Shown here one piece after another: positions 4,553 through 38,159 of a stretch of DNA of 64,000 nucleotides (position 1 is the first letter of the stretch; each line of letters starts with the position of its first letter). The notes under the pieces are model-generated. The model worked only from the letters and a program-made list of their open reading frames with translations. It ran no database searches and was not told the origin of the DNA. The position numbers were made by a program, and so were the translations under genes. The stretch is taken from the IMG/VR virus record IMGVR_UViG_3300045976_000096, positions 48,423-112,422 of that record; one strand, given 5' to 3'. This DNA comes from a virus.

Positions 4553-5164
4553 ATGCCGACCGGATACACGCACGCGCTGACCGAGCGCGACCTGAGCTTC
4601 CAGGAATACGCACTGACCTGCGCGCGCGCCTTTGGCGCCTTCGTTCATATGCGCGACGAGCCGCTCGGCGCGCCGCTGCGCCCAGACACCGTCACGTCAT
4701 ACTACGACGACAAGCTGACCGAAGCCAAAGCCGACCTGGACAAGTTCCAGCACATGTCGCTGGAAGATGCGCGCGTCCTGTACAACGCCGAACGTGCCGA
4801 ACGGCGCACGCGTGCCGAGCAGCGCATCGAGGAAATGAAGGTGATCGAGGCGCGCTATCGCGCGCTCAAGGAAAAGATCGACGCCTGGGCGCCGCCGACA
4901 CCGGAACACCAGAGCCTCAAGCGCTTCATGCTGGAGCAGTTGATGGTATCGGCCAGCGATTACGACTCGTCCTATTACGCGGAAGACGCCGCCCTGGCGC
5001 CGACCGTGACCGACGCCGAAGCGAGCGAATGGGTGCAGGAAAAGATCCGGGCCGCCATCAAGCAGATTGGCTACTGCAGCGACCAGCGTCGCAAGGAGCA
5101 GGAGCGCGTCGACCAGCGCAACGAATGGGCGCGCCAACTGCAGGAGTCGTTGAAAGATGGATAA
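4553..5164 (+). CDS. Conserved siphophage protein (MPTGYT family), unknown function
   Basis: 203 residues opening MPTGYTHAL and containing LTCARAFGAFVHMRDEP (residues 22-38). I recognise this N-terminal pattern from widespread tailed-phage early proteins of unknown function. The middle (60-110) is a charged helix. The ribosome site is inside the preceding gene, and the 3' end overlaps the next gene by 8 bases, so expression is coupled on both sides. Confidence 0.75.
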   Translation: MPTGYTHALTERDLSFQEYALTCARAFGAFVHMRDEPLGAPLRPDTVTSYYDDKLTEAKADLDKFQHMSLEDARVLYNAERAERRTRAEQRIEEMKVIEARYRALKEKIDAWAPPTPEHQSLKRFMLEQLMVSASDYDSSYYAEDAALAPTVTDAEASEWVQEKIRAAIKQIGYCSDQRRKEQERVDQRNEWARQLQESLKDG

Positions 5165-5708
5165 AAAGGTTGAGCTGAAGGATTTCGTCGGCAAGGAGTT
5201 CGACCTGACGGCGGTCTCCACCGCCGAGGTCGTCGCCAACGATAAATATGGCGACTTCGCAAACGCCAGCACCATCACCTTCACGCTCGATGGCGTGACG
5301 TATCAGGCGGTGGAAGACCCGAGCGACGGCTACCGGTCCTCGCTTCGGGAAATCTTCATCTGCGACACGGAACCGGCAAACCGGTTTCCAGCCCAGCGCG
5401 TGAAGGCGACGTGGAAGGAGCCGGGTTCTTACGACAACGACACGGTCGAATTCCGTTCGGTCGCCTCGGACCTGATCGTGATGGAAGTCGGCACCGACCA
5501 TGTGAATGACTATTATCCATGCTTCGTCAGCAATTTCGAGCCGAAGAACATGGACATCAACCGCACGGACGACATCCGGCAGAAGATCGCGATGGAGGAA
5601 GCCAAGCGACTCGAGGACGAACGGCATGCCCAAGATGTGCGGGACAAGCTGAACGCCAAAGCAAAGCTGGACGCGCAGCGCGACGACGCAGGCTGGGGCA
5701 CCTTTTGA
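5157..5708 (+). CDS. Hypothetical protein, 183 aa
   Basis: Overlaps the upstream gene by 8 bases. The first 130 residues look beta-rich; the last 45 are a charged helix (IRQKIAMEEAKRLEDERHAQ). A terminator hairpin follows 9 bases after the stop, closing the unit that began near 4297. No family recognised. Confidence 0.75.
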   Translation: MDKKVELKDFVGKEFDLTAVSTAEVVANDKYGDFANASTITFTLDGVTYQAVEDPSDGYRSSLREIFICDTEPANRFPAQRVKATWKEPGSYDNDTVEFRSVASDLIVMEVGTDHVNDYYPCFVSNFEPKNMDINRTDDIRQKIAMEEAKRLEDERHAQDVRDKLNAKAKLDAQRDDAGWGTF

Positions 5709-13598: not shown

Positions 13599-14045
13599 AT
13601 GGCAACAGTCTTATACCTGGACCACGACGGCAACCGGATCAGCCTTGAGCAGTACAAGGCGCATCAGGCCGACCCGACCTACACGCAGGTACACGCCTAC
13701 GACAACGGTCGTGTGCGCGCCGTCGTGACCTGGATCGGCCGCATCGTCGACCCCGGCTCGACCTTCCCGGACTACTACAAGCTGTTCAAGGTGGAAGTCT
13801 GGAACTACACCGAGGGCGGCGAGCTGGCGAAAGATCCTGGCTATCCGAAATTCTTCCCGACCAGGGACAAGGCGGTCGAGGAATACAACTTCTTCGTCGC
13901 GCGCTGGAGCGAATCCGAGCTGGATGACGAGGGGCAGCTGATCGAGGCGGGCAACACCCTGACACCTCCGCCACCACCCAACCCGGACGCGCCAAGCTCG
14001 GCGCCGCCGGCCGACGACGACATTGCAGGAGTAGGAGCATGGTAA
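13599..14045 (+). CDS. Hypothetical protein, 148 aa
   Basis: Beta-rich globular part (1-108) followed by a proline-rich acidic tail (TPPPPPNPDAPSSAPP). The start follows GAGAGAGCA. The 3' end carries AGGAGTAGGAG, the ribosome site of the next gene, which overlaps by 7 bases. No family recognised. Confidence 0.75.
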   Translation: MATVLYLDHDGNRISLEQYKAHQADPTYTQVHAYDNGRVRAVVTWIGRIVDPGSTFPDYYKLFKVEVWNYTEGGELAKDPGYPKFFPTRDKAVEEYNFFVARWSESELDDEGQLIEAGNTLTPPPPPNPDAPSSAPPADDDIAGVGAW

Positions 14046-16530: not shown

Positions 16531-17409
16531 ATGACAAGTGGCGTCTACTCCATCACCAACACCGTCAGCGGCAAACGGTACATTGGTAGCTCGCAGAAGA
16601 TCGCGACACGCTGGCGCATCCACCGTAACGATCTGCGAAACGGCAAGCACCACAGCCGGCATCTGCAGCACGCCTGGAACCTGGATGGCGAGGATGCCTT
16701 CGTATTTGAAATCCTGCTCGAGTGTGGCGTCGACGATCTGTTACGTGAGGAGCAGCGACTGATGGATGAAAGGCGCGCAAGGGAAGGCAACCACGGCTAC
16801 AACACGGCACCCGTTGCTGGCTCCCGTCGTGGTGTTCCGCATTCGCCCGAGGTGCGCGCCAGGATGAGTGAGAAGGCACGCGCTCGCCCGCCAATGAAGG
16901 ATGAACATCGCAAGGCGCTATCTGCCGCACTGCGTAAGGCACGATCGGAGGGTCGTCTGTTCACCGACGAGCATCGACGCAAGATTTCGGAGTCACTCAC
17001 CGGAAGGCAGTATTCGGATGAAACCCGCGCGAAGATCGGCGCCGCCGGCCGCGGTCGTCCGGTATCGGACGAAACGAAGGAGAAGCTGCGTGCCGCCTTG
17101 AAGGGCAAGCCGCTCTCCGACGAGAACTACCAGCGGCTCTTGGAGCGCAGCCGCACGACCAATGTGATCACGCCTGAAATTCGAGCCAAGATGGTCGAAT
17201 CGCGCAAGGCAACACTGGCCGCCAGGCGCAAGGAGGTCGCCGCACAAATCATCGCGCTCAAGGAGGAAGGGCTGTCGTTCTCCAAGATCGCGAAGCGTCT
17301 CACCGAGGATAAGGTGCCGACGCTGAATAGCAGGAAAGAAGGCGCGGAGCCAAGCTATAACTGGTTTCCCGCCATTGTTATCAAAATCTATAACGAGGCA
17401 ACACCATGA
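16531..17409 (+). CDS. GIY-YIG homing endonuclease with NUMOD-type repeats (2)
   Basis: 292 residues. GVYSITNTVSGKRYIGSS (4-21) is the GIY-YIG core (here GVY...RYIG), with Arg27 and Glu73 likely catalytic. NUMOD3-like helices (SPEVRARMSEKA, DEHRRKISESL, SDETRAKIGAA, SDETKEKLRAAL) repeat through 105-200, then a helix-turn-helix-like LKEEGLSFSKIAKRL at 248-262. It has its own TTGACA promoter, and its stop overlaps the next gene start (ATGA). Confidence 0.9.
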   Translation: MTSGVYSITNTVSGKRYIGSSQKIATRWRIHRNDLRNGKHHSRHLQHAWNLDGEDAFVFEILLECGVDDLLREEQRLMDERRAREGNHGYNTAPVAGSRRGVPHSPEVRARMSEKARARPPMKDEHRKALSAALRKARSEGRLFTDEHRRKISESLTGRQYSDETRAKIGAAGRGRPVSDETKEKLRAALKGKPLSDENYQRLLERSRTTNVITPEIRAKMVESRKATLAARRKEVAAQIIALKEEGLSFSKIAKRLTEDKVPTLNSRKEGAEPSYNWFPAIVIKIYNEATP

Positions 17410-17747
17410 ACGACAAACTGAAGGCATTACCGGACGACGCGCTGGTTCGCCTCAAGGAGCAGGTGGACGAGGAATTCAAGCGCCGGCGCAACCACCTGTT
17501 CGCCATCGGCAAGCACGCCACCTTCTTCTCGGAGCGGTATGGGCGCGAAGTGCGCATCCTGATCACCGGGCGCGGCCCGAAGAACCTCGTCGGCTTCGAG
17601 TGCGACGAGTACGGCAACAAGGTCGGCCCGCAATGGCGCTGCCACCCCAGCGCGCTGACGCCGGTGCTGCCGAAACCGAAGCCCGTCGCGCCGACGGTGG
17701 GCGTGGGCCGCGACGCGCCCGCGTCGGCAATGGCGGGATCGTTTTAA
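17406..17747 (+). CDS. Hypothetical protein, 113 aa
   Basis: Coupled to the homing endonuclease by an ATGA overlap. The N-terminal helix is charged (DDALVRLKEQVDEEFKRRRN), the centre (42-80) beta-rich and the tail Pro/Ala-rich. A terminator follows. No family recognised. Confidence 0.7.
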   Translation: MNDKLKALPDDALVRLKEQVDEEFKRRRNHLFAIGKHATFFSERYGREVRILITGRGPKNLVGFECDEYGNKVGPQWRCHPSALTPVLPKPKPVAPTVGVGRDAPASAMAGSF

Positions 17748-20694: not shown

Positions 20695-21075
20695 ATGCCC
20701 ATCGAGGCGATCGAGGTCGGCGAGGACATCGTCGGCTGCGGTTACTGCGGCGGGCAGCTGCTGCTGATCGAAATGATGCCGGACGGCCACCACGAAATCT
20801 GCAACGACTGCGGACAGCACTACCATGTGACGGACGAAGGCGAGAGTGCCGAGGACATCACAGCGGCGTTGGCCGCCGACATCGAAATCGTGGACGACGC
20901 CACCGGCGAGGTGGTCGGCACCACCGCGCCCGGCATGACCCACCCGTCCGAGCTGGACCGCCTGCTGCAGGAGCTGGGCGGCGAGGTGCCGATGGCCAGC
21001 GCCGCGGACCTGAACCACCTGTTCGGCATCAAGGACAAGCCCTGCCCGTATGGCGACGAGTTTGGCTCATTCTGA
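20695..21075 (+). CDS. Zinc-ribbon protein with acidic C-terminus
   Basis: 126 residues. CGYCGG (15-20) and CNDCG (36-40) form a zinc ribbon; the rest is acidic and helical. It follows the Lar-like gene, with which it shares ribbon architecture. Start ATG 20695 lacks a strong ribosome site, so the exact start is uncertain. Confidence 0.65.
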   Translation: MPIEAIEVGEDIVGCGYCGGQLLLIEMMPDGHHEICNDCGQHYHVTDEGESAEDITAALAADIEIVDDATGEVVGTTAPGMTHPSELDRLLQELGGEVPMASAADLNHLFGIKDKPCPYGDEFGSF

Positions 21076-24275: not shown

Positions 24276-24581
24276 GTGAACGCACCGGCCCCAAGTCCAC
24301 GCCCGCCGCTACATTTCATCGTGTGGCGCGTGACCTACAGCAGCGGCAGGACCACCGTCTCGGCGATCGACAAGAACCAGTTCGAGGCGCACATGGAGGA
24401 AAGCCCCGACTACCTCGACGGCTCGGCCTGTGTGAAAGCAATCAGCATCGCCGAGGCGGAAGACCTCGCGCGTGATCCGAACCTGTGGGAACCGATCCCG
24501 GCCCACGTAATCGAACAGGCACAAGAGCAACACCGGCAAGCAAAACTCGCGGCCAAGGCCCATTACCCGGCCGCATGGTAA
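24276..24581 (+). CDS. Hypothetical protein, 101 aa (GTG start)
   Basis: GTG 24276 is the likely start; GAGGAGAG lies upstream at 24262-24269, and a GATAAGT word of the kind repeated at 40.3-40.6 kb ends at the start codon. A/C-rich, T-poor codon use differs from most neighbours. No family recognised. Confidence 0.62.
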   Translation: MNAPAPSPRPPLHFIVWRVTYSSGRTTVSAIDKNQFEAHMEESPDYLDGSACVKAISIAEAEDLARDPNLWEPIPAHVIEQAQEQHRQAKLAAKAHYPAAW

Positions 24582-27675: not shown

Positions 27676-27885
27676 GATTCACATGCGAACCATTCACATG
27701 CTAATAGTTCGTAACCTAACCATTTGCGTGCTAATGATTCGCATACACATAGTTCGCATACGAACCATTCACATGCTAATGATTCGTATGCTAATCGTTC
27801 ACATGCTAATCGTTCGCGTGCTAATGATTCGTATGCTAATCGTTCGCATGTGAACAGTTGACGTATCAACAGTTGAATACGCAAG
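27676..27885. repeat. Iteron array: fourteen 15-bp units
   Basis: Fourteen contiguous 15-bp units with consensus close to CGTTCGCATGCTAAT. The first 13 keep the pattern closely; units 12-14 drift at the right edge. Units 6 (GTTCG-CATA-CGAAC) and 13 (GTTGA-CGTA-TCAAC) are perfect palindromes, so each unit is probably a degenerate dimeric binding site. A 15-bp palindrome AACCCGA-A-TCGGGTT follows at 27887-27901. Typical of replication or partition iterons. Confidence 0.85.
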
Positions 27886-30051: not shown

Positions 30052-30456
30052 TCACCAGTTATCCACAATCCCCTTGGGCCGATCCTTCGACGCCAGGCGC
30101 GAGCCATCGAAACGCCCGGCCGGCGCTGCCGCGCCTCGCCGGGGTACGTCCTGCGCGCGTGGAATGATTGCCGCCTGAATGAACAGAGGCTGGACCTCCC
30201 ATTCTGCTTTCGACTCGAATGACCGGTTGCCGCTTGGGACCAGCGCCAGGTAATTTTCCCACGACAGGTCGCGATCCTTCTGCAGGGCCAGGCACTTGCC
30301 GACCAGCTCCTTGATGATGCGCTTTTGCTCTAACGGCCAGACGCCATCCCACCTATGGGCAGGCATGTCGCCGTTCTCCTGCTCGCCCAGCTGACGCCGA
30401 AGGTACAGGTAGTCCTCGTAGTTCGGGAAGGACAGGATTTTCGCCAGGTCTCTCAC
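30052..30456 (-). CDS. Member of a tandem small-protein family (last gene of the chain)
   Basis: 134 residues from GTG 30456, which overlaps the upstream stop (GTGA) and has GGAGGTGA just before it inside the upstream gene. Residues 11-22 (PNYEDYLYLRRQ) match the YxxY start shared by the small genes upstream; the remainder (RWDGVWPLEQKRIIKELVGK) matches their central W-helix. It has a longer basic C-terminus. Function unknown. Confidence 0.68.
   Translation of the reverse strand: MRDLAKILSFPNYEDYLYLRRQLGEQENGDMPAHRWDGVWPLEQKRIIKELVGKCLALQKDRDLSWENYLALVPSGNRSFESKAEWEVQPLFIQAAIIPRAQDVPRRGAAAPAGRFDGSRLASKDRPKGIVDNW
30059..30067. other. DnaA-box match
   Basis: TTATCCACA, identical to the classical DnaA box, with TTATCCCCG (30039-30047) and TTATACATC (29987-29995) nearby as weaker matches. 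Near the end of the minus-strand block. Confidence 0.4.
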
Positions 30457-30656
30457 CAGATCACCTCCACGACGGTTTGCGGCCTGTCCGAGCCGGCGGC
30501 GCCTTGCGTTCTCGGGGTGCGCCGCACTTCCTCGCGCAGCTCCTCCATCATGTCCATCCGTGCTTTCAGGGGCATGGCGCGCCAGACGGCCTCTGAAATC
30601 GGCTCGTACTTGAGCGCCAGCGACAGCTCCACGTAGCGCTGGTAGGTGTTCACCAT
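30453..30656 (-). CDS. Tandem family member with VEVIW C-terminus
   Basis: 67 residues. YQRYVELSLAL (5-15) and AVWRAMPLKARMDMMEEL are the family core; the protein ends QTVVEVIW, encoded by DNA containing the ribosome site of the next gene (GTGGAGGTGATC). Start ATG overlaps the previous stop (ATGGTGA). Confidence 0.7.
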   Translation of the reverse strand: MVNTYQRYVELSLALKYEPISEAVWRAMPLKARMDMMEELREEVRRTPRTQGAAGSDRPQTVVEVIW

Positions 30657-30871
30657 ACGACGTCCACCGGGGTTTGCGGTTGATCGCCCTTCGGTTGGGC
30701 GGTGGCGCGCGCACGGTCGCGCATGACGCGCTGCTGGTGCTGTAGAACGTTGATCGTGATCTTGCGCATGATGGGCTTCATGTCGGTCCAGGCGTTGGCA
30801 TCGATGCAGACTTCGTTGTCGAAGTGCCCGGCCAGCCAGGTGCGCATGTAGTCGTCGTAGGAGATGTTCAC
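30650..30871 (-). CDS. Tandem family member with VDVVW C-terminus
   Basis: 73 residues from GTG 30871. SYDDYMRTWLAGH (4-16), then NAWTDMKPIMRKI, a K/R-rich helix and the shared end QTPVDVVW. GTG overlaps the upstream stop (TGGTGA). Confidence 0.68.
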   Translation of the reverse strand: MNISYDDYMRTWLAGHFDNEVCIDANAWTDMKPIMRKITINVLQHQQRVMRDRARATAQPKGDQPQTPVDVVW

Positions 30872-31056
30872 CAGTGGTCTCCGCCAAAACGTTCCAGTTC
30901 CTTGTTGCGTCGGTCGACGGCAGCCTGCATCTGGGCCACCATGCTCTCCTGCGCCTTCTGATCACAGCCATTCCAGACGTGCTCTGCAATAAGGCCGAAA
31001 TCGTCGTCGAACCCGGCTTCCACGCGCAGTCGGCGGTAGCGCTGGTACAGGCTCAT
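30868..31056 (-). CDS. Tandem family member with GGDHW C-terminus
   Basis: 62 residues. LYQRYRRLRVEAGF (3-16) and HVWNGCDQKAQESMVAQM are the family core; the end FGGDHW is encoded by GGCGGAGACCACTGGTGA, again carrying the next gene's ribosome site and start. Confidence 0.68.
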   Translation of the reverse strand: MSLYQRYRRLRVEAGFDDDFGLIAEHVWNGCDQKAQESMVAQMQAAVDRRNKELERFGGDHW

Positions 31057-31244
31057 GCGTCACCCCGCTGCCAGGCGATGAAGTCCTCGGTGCCGTCGGC
31101 AAAGCCGCGCTCCCAGGCCTCGACCAGCACGGGTGTAGTGTACGGACAGGCCGGCACTTCCGTGACCAGTTCGTAGCGCCCGGTGCGCCAGCCGGCATCG
31201 AGACCGTCGGCATAAGCGTCGGCGTCAGCGGTCCACTTCACCAT
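31053..31244 (-). CDS. Hypothetical protein in the minus-strand chain, 63 aa
   Basis: Starts MVKW at ATG 31244 overlapping the previous stop, ends QRGDA with an ATGA overlap. Repeated DAYADGLDAGW-type acidic/aromatic segments (also EAWERGFADGTEDFIAW) suggest an internal duplication. Not an obvious YxxY paralog. Confidence 0.65.
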   Translation of the reverse strand: MVKWTADADAYADGLDAGWRTGRYELVTEVPACPYTTPVLVEAWERGFADGTEDFIAWQRGDA

Positions 31245-31582
31245 ACCACCTCCACCGTGGTCTTCGGCGTGTCGCCCTTGCCGGTAAGCCGGTCAATCTC
31301 GTCCTGCGACGCCTCGCGCCACTCGCCGGCGCGCACGCTGGTGTCGATCGTCACGGTGGTATAGGTGATGTGCGGCACGGCACGCCCATCCCGGAACATC
31401 AGTCGCCCGGTATGGGTATCGTGACCCGGCTCGAAGTCGATGCAGATGGCGCGCAAGGTGTCGCGCCAGGTGCCGTGCGGACCCTGCACGAAGTAGCGTT
31501 TCATCACGTTCTTGCGCTGGCCACTGTCGTCGGCAGGCCTGCCGGCGCCGGCCACGCCGAGCCAGTCGATATTCGTCACCAT
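31238..31582 (-). CDS. Hypothetical protein with VEVVW C-terminus, 114 aa
   Basis: From ATG 31582 (MVTNIDW). The core KRYFVQG...AICIDFEPG...RLMFRDGRAV resembles the 107-aa protein at 31776 (KRVFMLPG...HIEFDFGEG...DGSVAV), so the two are probably paralogs. Ends KTTVEVVW, encoding GTGGAGGTGGTATGG, the next gene's ribosome site and start. Confidence 0.68.
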   Translation of the reverse strand: MVTNIDWLGVAGAGRPADDSGQRKNVMKRYFVQGPHGTWRDTLRAICIDFEPGHDTHTGRLMFRDGRAVPHITYTTVTIDTSVRAGEWREASQDEIDRLTGKGDTPKTTVEVVW

Positions 31583-31782
31583 GCGTCCACCCCGTCGGTC
31601 TTGGGTTTGTCGCCTCTTGGTGTGCCGGGGTCGACCTGGGCCTGCTTGGCCAGCGCCACGATGACGTTGCGGCGTTCCTCCTCGGGAACCAGATCGTTCC
31701 AGATCTCGTACGTGGCGGGCCTGTCCGCGCGCTTGGCCAGCCGGCACAGGCGCAGGTAGTTGTCGTAGCTGGTGTCTACCAT
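31576..31782 (-). CDS. Tandem family member with GVDAW C-terminus
   Basis: 68 residues. SYDNYLRLCRLAK (5-17) and EIWNDLVPEEERRNVIVALA carry the YxxY and W-helix core; the end KTDGVDAW overlaps the next start (GCATGGTGA). Confidence 0.7.
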   Translation of the reverse strand: MVDTSYDNYLRLCRLAKRADRPATYEIWNDLVPEEERRNVIVALAKQAQVDPGTPRGDKPKTDGVDAW

Positions 31783-32099
31783 GCTCCGCCCTCCACTTCG
31801 GTTTGCGGCACGTCGGGCAGACGCACGCGCGCGCCGGCCGCCATCTTCAGCTGGTACTCGCTCGGCTCGAAGTAGGCGTTTTCGTTGTTAGGCTCCTGCA
31901 GCACCTCGATCATGGTGCCGGATTCGACGTGGCTCATCACGTCCTTGAAGCTCCACGGGCAGTGTACGGCGACGCTGCCATCGTGCTTGATGCCGCGCCG
32001 CGTCGTGATCGCGCCTTCTCCTTCGCCGAAGTCGAACTCGATGTGGTGAATGCGGTCGTTGATCGGCTTGGCGCCTGGCAGCATGAACACGCGCTTCAT
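31776..32099 (-). CDS. Hypothetical protein with VEGGAW C-terminus, 107 aa
   Basis: ATG 32099 overlaps the stop of the RHH-like gene. Beta-rich; paralogous to the protein at 31238-31582. Ends QTEVEGGAW, encoding GTGGAGGGCGGAGCATGG, the ribosome site and start of the next gene. Confidence 0.7.
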   Translation of the reverse strand: MKRVFMLPGAKPINDRIHHIEFDFGEGEGAITTRRGIKHDGSVAVHCPWSFKDVMSHVESGTMIEVLQEPNNENAYFEPSEYQLKMAAGARVRLPDVPQTEVEGGAW

Positions 32100-32377
32100 G
32101 GCGTCACCAGCGCCTCGACCTGGGCCAGCGCCTCGGGCGGCAGCGTGCGCAGCTTGGCGGCAAGCTCGCGCGCGCGGGTGCGGGCATCCAGCTTGTGCTG
32201 GCGCCGGGCCGCGAAGATGTGGTCGACATTGTCCAGTCCGCCGATGATGTCGAGCATGACCTCGATCGCCTCGCCCTGCGTCAGCTTGTGGGTCTTGGCC
32301 AGCTGGTTCAGATGCTCGCGCGCTTCGGCGCTCAGGTCGATGGTGTAGCGCGGGCGCGCCGGGTTGGTGGTGCCCAT
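32096..32377 (-). CDS. Ribbon-helix-helix-like DNA-binding protein
   Basis: 93 residues. RPRYTIDLSAEAREHLNQLA (9-28) followed by KLTQGEAIEVMLDII (31-45) fits the strand-helix-helix of RHH/Arc-type regulators; the C-terminal half is helical. First gene of the minus-strand chain behind its own promoter and operator, so it may autoregulate; it is a second candidate for the palindrome-binding protein. Confidence 0.68.
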   Translation of the reverse strand: MGTTNPARPRYTIDLSAEAREHLNQLAKTHKLTQGEAIEVMLDIIGGLDNVDHIFAARRQHKLDARTRARELAAKLRTLPPEALAQVEALVTP

Positions 32378-32440: not shown

Positions 32441-32463
32441 AAAAAAAGCGCCCCGAAGGGCGC
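32441..32463 (-). terminator. Intrinsic terminator with TTCG loop
   Basis: Minus strand GCGCCC-TTCG-GGGCGC followed by TTTTTTT; ends the membrane-protein gene at 32490. Confidence 0.85.
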
Positions 32464-32489
32464 TTGAAAGGCACTACATGGGAAAGGAG

Positions 32490-36777: not shown

Positions 36778-36956
36778 CCGAGCTGAAACGCGGCCGCCTG
36801 ACCATCAGGGGCAACCAGACCACGAAGGGCTTCGGCTGCCACTGCAGTGGCCCGGCCTACGGCACCGAGTTCTGCCTGTGCGAACTGGCCCGGATGCAGG
36901 CCGAGCAGGAGGAGCGCGGTGACGATGACGACGATTACGAGGATCGCAAGAAATGA
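36774..36956 (+). CDS. Small Cys-rich protein, 60 aa
   Basis: ATGA-coupled. GCHCSGPAYGTEFCLCELAR (21-40) supplies four Cys and one His, a likely zinc site; acidic C-terminus (GDDDDDYED). Immediately precedes and overlaps the ABC ATPase gene. Confidence 0.68.
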   Translation: MTELKRGRLTIRGNQTTKGFGCHCSGPAYGTEFCLCELARMQAEQEERGDDDDDYEDRKK

Positions 36957-37609
36957 CCACTTTTACCATCGACAAGCGCTTCCACACGACCGTGGAGCGC
37001 ACCGACCGCGTGCTGGAAATCGCCGAAGCGTTCGGCCTGGGCCTGGACGACAAGGAATTCGTCGTGTTCGACCAGCAGCCGATCGACATCGAGCAGGGTG
37101 ACGTCGTCTACGTGACGGGCCAGTCGGGCGCCGGCAAATCCACCGTGCTGCGCGAGCTGGCGGCCCAGATGCAGGCCGCCGGCCTGGCCGTGACCGACAT
37201 CGACGCCATCCCGCTGCTGGACAAGCCGCTGATCGACCAGATCGGCAAGACCACCCAGGAGGCGCTGAACTTCCTGTCGATCGCCGGCCTGAATGACGCC
37301 TACCTGTTCATCAGGAAGCCGGCCGAGCTGTCCGACGGCCAGCGCTACCGCTTCCGCCTGGCCAAGCTGATCGAGTCGGGCGCGCGCGTCTGGGTCGCCG
37401 ACGAGTTCCTGGCCGTGCTCGACCGCACCACCGCCAAGGTGATCGCGTTCAACCTGCAAAAGACCGCGAGAAAGACCGGCGCCACCCTGATCGTGGCCAC
37501 CACCCACACCGACATGGTCGACGACCTGGCGCCCAACCTTTACGTGGAGAAGCGTTACAGGGAAAAGATCCAGATCATTCGCGCGCCAGAGGGCATGAAG
37601 AATGTCTAA
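36953..37609 (+). CDS. ABC-family ATPase
   Basis: 218 residues: Walker A GQSGAGKST (56-64), signature LSDGQ (126-130), Walker B VWVADEF (146-152) and H-loop His195. It lacks transporter partners; instead it resembles the ATPase half of proteins in which an ABC domain is fused to a GNAT domain, and a matching GNAT gene lies at 38993. The C-terminal RAPEGMKN is repeated at the end of the inserted endonuclease gene downstream. Confidence 0.82.
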   Translation: MTTFTIDKRFHTTVERTDRVLEIAEAFGLGLDDKEFVVFDQQPIDIEQGDVVYVTGQSGAGKSTVLRELAAQMQAAGLAVTDIDAIPLLDKPLIDQIGKTTQEALNFLSIAGLNDAYLFIRKPAELSDGQRYRFRLAKLIESGARVWVADEFLAVLDRTTAKVIAFNLQKTARKTGATLIVATTHTDMVDDLAPNLYVEKRYREKIQIIRAPEGMKNV

Positions 37610-38159
37610 GGCGGGCATCTACCGGATCAGCAACCGCGAGAACGGCAAGTTCTATGTCGGCAGCGCGGTCAACCTGGAAAAGCGGTTCTACCTGCACCGC
37701 AACCAGCTCGACCTCGGCAAGCACCGGAACAGCCACCTGCAGCGCGCCTGGGACAAGCACGGCGCCGACGCCTTCGACTTTACGGTCCTGCAGTACGTCG
37801 AGGACAAGACGCAGCTGGTGGCGATCGAGCAGAACTGGATCGACACCCTGCGCGCTACCGAGCTCGGCTACAACATCTGCAAGGTGGCTAACAGCCGCCT
37901 GGGTGTGAAGGCCAGCGACGAGACCAAGGCGCGCATGTCGGCGGCAATGGCCGGGAAGACGCACACCGAAGAGACCCGAAAGAAAATGTCGGCCGCCAAG
38001 GCCGGCGTACCGAAACCACCACGATCGGCTGAGCATCGCGAAAAGCTCGGCGCCGTCCACCGCGGCAAGATCGTGTCCGAAGAAACGCGCGCAAAGCTGC
38101 GCGCCGCGCGAGCTGCACGCGAAGCACGTCGCGCACCCGAAGGAATGAAGAATGCATAA
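37602..38159 (+). CDS. GIY-YIG homing endonuclease (3)
   Basis: 185 residues. GIYRISNRENGKFYVGSAVN (5-24), Arg28 and Glu74 form the nuclease core; NUMOD3-like helices (SDETKARMSAAM, TEETRKKMSAAK, EETRAKLRAA) follow. It starts inside the end of the ABC gene and ends with the same RAPEGMKN peptide and DNA as that gene, so it carries a copy of the junction it interrupts and preserves the ribosome site of the thioredoxin gene. Confidence 0.9.
   Translation: MSKAGIYRISNRENGKFYVGSAVNLEKRFYLHRNQLDLGKHRNSHLQRAWDKHGADAFDFTVLQYVEDKTQLVAIEQNWIDTLRATELGYNICKVANSRLGVKASDETKARMSAAMAGKTHTEETRKKMSAAKAGVPKPPRSAEHREKLGAVHRGKIVSEETRAKLRAARAAREARRAPEGMKNA

Follow-up and report, generated by a model that had tools for sequence, protein, structure and literature searches.

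A C-terminal aromatic tag shared by unrelated small phage proteins, with a candidate role in docking

The C-terminal tails of bacterial SSB and of T7 gp2.5 have a flexible linker and acidic residues, and their last, aromatic residue (Phe in SSB) docks into partner proteins. Among phage proteins, the capsid targeting sequence of the T4 internal proteins is a terminal signal that is N-terminal, is cleaved and serves packaging. Start-associated sequences, known from mycobacteriophages, are non-coding DNA repeats before start codons. The SSB tail and its partner proteins are reviewed in PMC9917605. In McdB, a protein of carboxysome positioning, an invariant C-terminal Trp mediates association with the target, and other aromatic residues complement it gradedly (PMC11321042). 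In cluster K mycobacteriophages, the start-associated sequences form a motif that recurs at many small genes and carries translation signals (PMC3203893).

The window analysed in this work is a stretch of 64,000 nucleotides, positions 48423-112422 of a 112,422-bp viral contig. The terminase, portal and UvsW-like helicase regions of this contig resemble those of Pseudomonas phage nickie and its relatives, Rhizobium phage RHEph10, Stenotrophomonas phage ANB28 and SSU5-like phages. The window contains a chain of tiny genes whose proteins share similar ends, and proteins encoded elsewhere in the window and in the related genomes end in the same way. Sequence comparison leads us to propose, at a probability of roughly 70%, that these ends are a C-terminal docking tag, whose partner would be one co-evolving, most likely phage-encoded core protein.

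The chain is located on the minus strand, downstream of the helicase gene. It is preceded by a terminator-like hairpin (32446..32465, minus strand; 2.0 such sites are expected in shuffles of the region) and headed by a 93-aa RHH-like gene without the Trp tail (32096..32377, minus strand; phrog_3203 of unknown function, E 1.6e-6, RHH-like by eye). The sequence-only reading had described seven linked small genes; the chain itself stands, but it comprises eight tiny genes, each overlapping the next, from 32099 to 30052, which encode, in this order, proteins of 107, 68, 114, 63, 62, 73, 67 and 134 aa. Trp is the last residue in seven of these proteins. The remaining one, a 63-aa RMF-like protein (31053..31244), ends in ..RGDA; it matches Pfam RMF at E 9.4e-5, below the curated cut-off, and could act on ribosomes.

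Paralogy among the chain proteins was assessed by leave-one-out comparison with the tails removed. The five paralogs of the YxxY...W type recognized before were recovered in four cases (E 9e-15 to 2e-4), namely 31576..31782 (tail ..GDKPKTDGVDAW, E 2.8e-5), which overlaps the preceding gene by 7 nt, 30868..31056 (tail ..GGDHW, E 8.6e-15), 30453..30656 (tail ..SDRPQTVVEVIW, E 5.7e-6) and the N-terminal half of the last chain gene, 30052..30456 (tail ..KDRPKGIVDNW, E 2.2e-4), while the fifth, 30650..30871 (tail ..GDQPQTPVDVVW), is marginal (E 0.04). The second pair, here called the M family, is weak and becomes supported when relatives are included; it is formed by 31776..32099 (tail ..PDVPQTEVEGGAW, E 0.009) and 31238..31582 (tail ..GDTPKTTVEVVW, E 0.0004), which has an N-terminal extension. 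The Y-family protein 30868..31056 presents 53% identity to the product of 11402-11590 of contig L031, and its AlphaFold2 model is helical (pLDDT 87.5, about 48 in the last residues); a fold search with this model gave no match (best E 3.5), and the predicted model of the M family was of poor quality. By eye, the last chain gene could plausibly hold a second Y repeat, but the Y profile gave this no support, and a weak match of a Y protein in phage hairong lies on the strand opposite to the genes annotated there and was taken as chance. Scans of viral contigs with single M- and Y-family proteins revealed no further locus, and PHROGs and Pfam searches of the tagged proteins found little.

Eight junctions were compared, including the one leading into 32099-31776. 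Four are 7-nt ATGGTRA overlaps, two are 4-nt GTGA overlaps inside TGGTGA and two are plain ATGA overlaps; the Shine-Dalgarno site is located within the tail codons of the chain genes. The junctions had been called near-identical; the window holds three copies of the strict motif GTGGANGTNRTNTGGTGA, every one of them within the chain (0.12 expected), and the remaining junctions are looser. The last chain gene keeps its Trp though no gene follows on the same strand.

Loci corresponding to the chain were found in relatives by using the helicase as anchor. The small genes after the helicase vary in number and family among L002, L004, L018, L027 and L031, in agreement with the gain and loss of cassettes predicted earlier. 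The loci of L031 and L027 have one M and one Y gene each, L004 and L003 have one Y gene followed by a gene for a putative nucleotide-binding protein (SLOG-like, by eye), L002 has five tandem M paralogs, and L018 has three Y genes; in L002, L004, L018 and L031 this locus likewise begins with a small gene of the 93-aa RHH-like type. The chain is absent from the helicase-anchored loci of more distant relatives. In L031 (13429-14066) and L027 (3344-3996), where the chain is shortened, it is followed downstream by a gene for a PIN-domain protein (E 1.6e-13 in L031) that overlaps a small upstream gene, as in a VapBC-like toxin-antitoxin pair. The M-family frame of L027 (2699-3106) does not stop at its expected tail and goes on in a different frame, which looks like a frameshift in this contig. 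A second tandem array of small genes, on the opposite strand, was observed in L025 (15969-16801, minus strand) and L028 (15131-15918, minus strand), with protein ends ..GYGEVW or ..YGSW and with the junctions TGGTAGATG and TGGTRATG.

The terminal Trp is not restricted to the chain. Apart from the named phages, the contigs come from virus records of metagenomic or isolate origin, and their genes were called with a purpose-written program. In the gene calls of nine related genomes, Trp ends 4-10% of all proteins, against an overall Trp content of 1.1-1.5%, counts that are not independent, since the genomes share ancestry. With random internal windows as a control for chance and composition, the excess of Trp ends was significant at p<0.001 in G000-G006, G008, G009 and G015, at p=0.002 in G013 and at p=0.03 in G007; the same control gave no excess in G014 and RHEph10, where Phe is the last residue of the tags. 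The unrelated phage D3 showed no excess either (1/78). In eight genomes, a terminal Trp was seen on 0 of 224 structural homologs and on 104 of about 1030 products of other genes. The tag is also absent from the conserved replication and recombination proteins that occur in all or nearly all of 15 genomes; some NrdB orthologs end in Trp, in a context of their own.

In total, 180 tagged proteins from 20 genomes or parts of genomes gave 91 clusters, between which homology was undetectable once the tail was set aside; the lineage-specific tag patterns used in this count were chosen after viewing the data, so that the concerted switch between lineages rests mainly on three ortholog families. The tails of the window's clade take the forms WGSW, FGSW, VGAW, DAW or D-x-P-x-T...W, and D-x-P-x-T occurs a few residues upstream of the tag in many tagged proteins. 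G013 presents DNPxWGSW, G014 presents FGAF or FGRF, RHEph10 presents NPxFGRF or FGMF on seven proteins, and ANB28 presents YGGW, YGEW, IGAW or QGSW. In nickie, eight proteins end in G[GST]W[AS] and a ninth in SDWA, and in SSU5 the tail WATW was found on two proteins only. The tagged genes of nickie and RHEph10 terminate at the stops of coding sequences in the deposited annotation. Orthologs with a WGR domain end in WGSW in the window's clade, FGRF in G014 and FGMF in RHEph10; a family located beside a RuvC-like gene ends in FGSW, WGSW, FGAF or FGRF, and the same locus shows WATW in SSU5 and FGGWA in nickie. In gene 96 of G014 (84376-84870) the motif occurs twice in the tail, ..NPIFGAFLIPNFGAF, as if a second tag had been appended behind the first.

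On the plus strand of the window, tagged proteins outside the chain include 13599..14045 (tail ..DDDIAGVGAW), a family in which 10/10 members end in Trp and which is the third of the ortholog families whose tag switches by lineage (VGAW/AGGWS), and 24276..24581 (tail ..AHYPAAW), with orthologs ending in PEVW or PEAW. Phe variants are present in 5157..5708 (..DDAGWGTF; orthologs end in WGSW), in 17406..17747 (..RDAPASAMAGSF; orthologs end in AGSW, GVRW or GAAW) and in 20695..21075 (..YGDEFGSF), a zinc-ribbon-like protein whose Pfam zinc-ribbon match is below the cut-off. Directly 5′ of the gene at 17406 lies a gene for a GIY-YIG/NUMOD3 endonuclease (16531-17409, plus strand), the second of this type in the window. 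The other, a homing-endonuclease gene (37602-38159, plus strand), is overlapped by an ATP-binding (ABC/AAA-like) gene (36953-37609, plus strand); the two proteins end in ..RAPEGMKNA and ..RAPEGMKNV, respectively, as if the 3′ end of the ATP-binding gene had been duplicated around the insertion. A tandem repeat (27677-27850, period 15/45, 68-78% matches) lies between coding regions. In the close relative G001, a tyrosine recombinase gene (L052:13195-14256; Phage_integrase, E 2.8e-22) suggests a temperate or plasmid-like life style.

The tails are, as judged from orthologs and codons, selected at the protein level. Among reciprocal best ortholog pairs below 45% identity, a terminal Trp is kept in 107/153 and a terminal Ala in 136/612; divided by identity, the values are 61/88 and 48/242 below 35%, and 46/65 and 88/370 between 35 and 45%. 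The Ser of GS[WFY] tails is encoded by AGY in 13 cases and by TCN in 25, and the Arg before the final Phe in RHEph10 by AGA, AGG, CGC or CGG. The linker before the tip is richer in Pro and Glu (Pro 9.2% vs 4.4%), and the tails of many, not all, tagged proteins are acidic.

The shared ends had been explained as a by-product of the ribosome site together with the ATG/GTG-TGA overlap. One part of this account holds, that the tail codons double as a ribosome site where the next gene follows directly: the Gly codon at position -3 is GGA or GGG in 40/49 coupled genes vs 13/31 uncoupled ones, hence a Shine-Dalgarno site is overlaid on the tag where needed. In addition, a Trp-ending gene precedes 26/30 of the 7-nt overlaps, as expected if TGG before the stop permits ATGGTGA. 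As the origin of the ends, however, the account is very improbable, and the uncoupled tagged genes refute it as sole cause. The enrichment extends to most classes of junction: Trp ends were found in 40/732 genes (5.5%) separated from the next one by more than 25 nt, in 19/277 with the next gene at 0-25 nt and in 15/145 (10.3%) at operon ends, where no same-strand gene follows; the values at overlaps are 18/118 for 1 nt, 12/326 for 4 nt and 2/93, near background, for other lengths. The Trp-ending genes use all three stop codons (TAA, TAG and TGA), and orthologs retain the tail at downstream gaps of -7, 15 or 423 nt. RHEph10 and G014 have Phe at this position, and no TGGTGA is kept because the tail ends in TTY-stop; the nucleotide junction motif is kept neither in uncoupled genes nor in these Phe lineages. 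It is the tag that allows the overlap, and not the overlap the tag. Tails could also have spread as DNA, if recombination at repeated gene junctions copied the 3′ end from gene to gene. Tails do look alike within a locus (QTHG[SA]AW three times in L018, GYGEVW in L025/L028) and the arrays expand and contract, but shared tails differ in synonymous codons, with Ser and Arg drawn from both codon boxes, and tags are kept over deep divergence of orthologs, which makes this origin improbable. The related proposal of the sequence-only reading, shuffling of cassettes by recombination at the junctions, is unsupported, since the tail codons vary synonymously and the homology from junction to junction is short.

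Two further explanations grant the peptide a function of another kind. The tag could be a capsid-targeting signal for packaging and ejection, by which small early proteins would enter the host with the DNA. One terminal signal common to unrelated, small and variable proteins fits this explanation, and the T4 internal proteins are a precedent, whose signal differs in its position and cleavage; several tagged proteins, on the other hand, resemble intracellular factors of DNA metabolism (a WGR domain, an ExoX-like C-terminal, the RuvC neighbour), and we regard capsid targeting as unlikely. A degron or protease signal timing the removal of early proteins is considerably less likely still: the C-terminal position and hydrophobic end would suit known C-terminal protease recognition, but the tag is not known to match ssrA-like or ClpX motifs, and strict conservation of a bulky aromatic residue with lineage-wide switches is not expected of a permissive degron.

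Between phage lineages the tails of unrelated proteins change in step, which points to a common docking tag and not to a by-product of gene overlap. Such concerted change would be expected from a receptor that co-evolves with the tag. In the docking-tag model, the tag is a short linear motif: acidic residues typically come first, followed by one residue that is aromatic or small and hydrophobic, by Gly, by Ser/Ala/Thr and, at the very end, by Trp, in whose place some lineages have Phe and nickie has Trp-Ala/Ser. It closes a linker rich in Pro and Glu that follows small domains unrelated to one another, and would bring accessory proteins to one complex; the putative partner is most likely encoded by the phage, as a core protein acting in replication, recombination or host takeover. 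The candidate partners were narrowed to conserved untagged proteins, namely helicase, primase, ligase, CobS/CobT-like, polymerase, SSB-like, RecA-like, exonucleases and RuvC-like, names that rest on position and length in comparison with annotated nickie, SSU5 and RHEph10. The small tagged genes duplicate and turn over in the chain, where TGG beside the stop lets the following gene begin inside ATGGTGA or TGGTGA, and the choice of GGA or GGG for Gly lets the tag codons also act as ribosome site. A broader reading, which we offer tentatively, is an addressing system in which a dedicated phage-encoded receptor would read a tag borne by as much as about a tenth of the proteome. Receptor and tag would co-evolve in each lineage, and new genes that gain the tag would be recruited to the replication or takeover complex. 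As counterpoints, some Trp ends may reflect other contexts, such as NrdB (..GGALEW), the MazE-like antitoxins and the tyrosine recombinase of G001 (..LADKLW), for which a separate constraint may apply, and the EVVW/EVIW ends of the chain are without the GSW form.

No description of such a tag emerged from a search of the open-access literature. In large phages, most accessory genes are without known function; a shared tag specific to each lineage would mark those acting at one place, and could be used as bait to find it. The docking tag would also explain how unrelated small genes join a phage and serve at once, and would give a protein-level cause for an odd and recurrent pattern of gene overlap. 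RHEph10 and nickie, which are named isolates with clear tags, make the idea testable.

Among the known systems, the T4 capsid targeting sequence is alike in being a short terminal address common to unrelated small phage proteins, and the tag described here differs in being C-terminal and absent from structural homologs. In comparison with the start-associated sequences, what is conserved here is the encoded peptide, with a ribosome site overlaid in coupled genes only. McdB provides an analogy, that a single C-terminal Trp, which other aromatic residues can partly replace, can direct a protein to its target, and its graded aromatic replacement resembles the alternation of Trp, Phe and Tyr in the phage tag; McdB differs in being one bacterial protein family with a microcompartment as target and no tag common to unrelated proteins. 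The SSB tail is alike in its terminal aromatic residue, kept here across divergent orthologs (Trp in 107 of 153 pairs below 45% identity). Unlike SSB, the phage's own SSB-like protein (G000 gene 36, ..LLGELPE) is without the tag; and whereas SSB is one tail-bearing protein with many partners, in these phages many unrelated proteins bear the tail.
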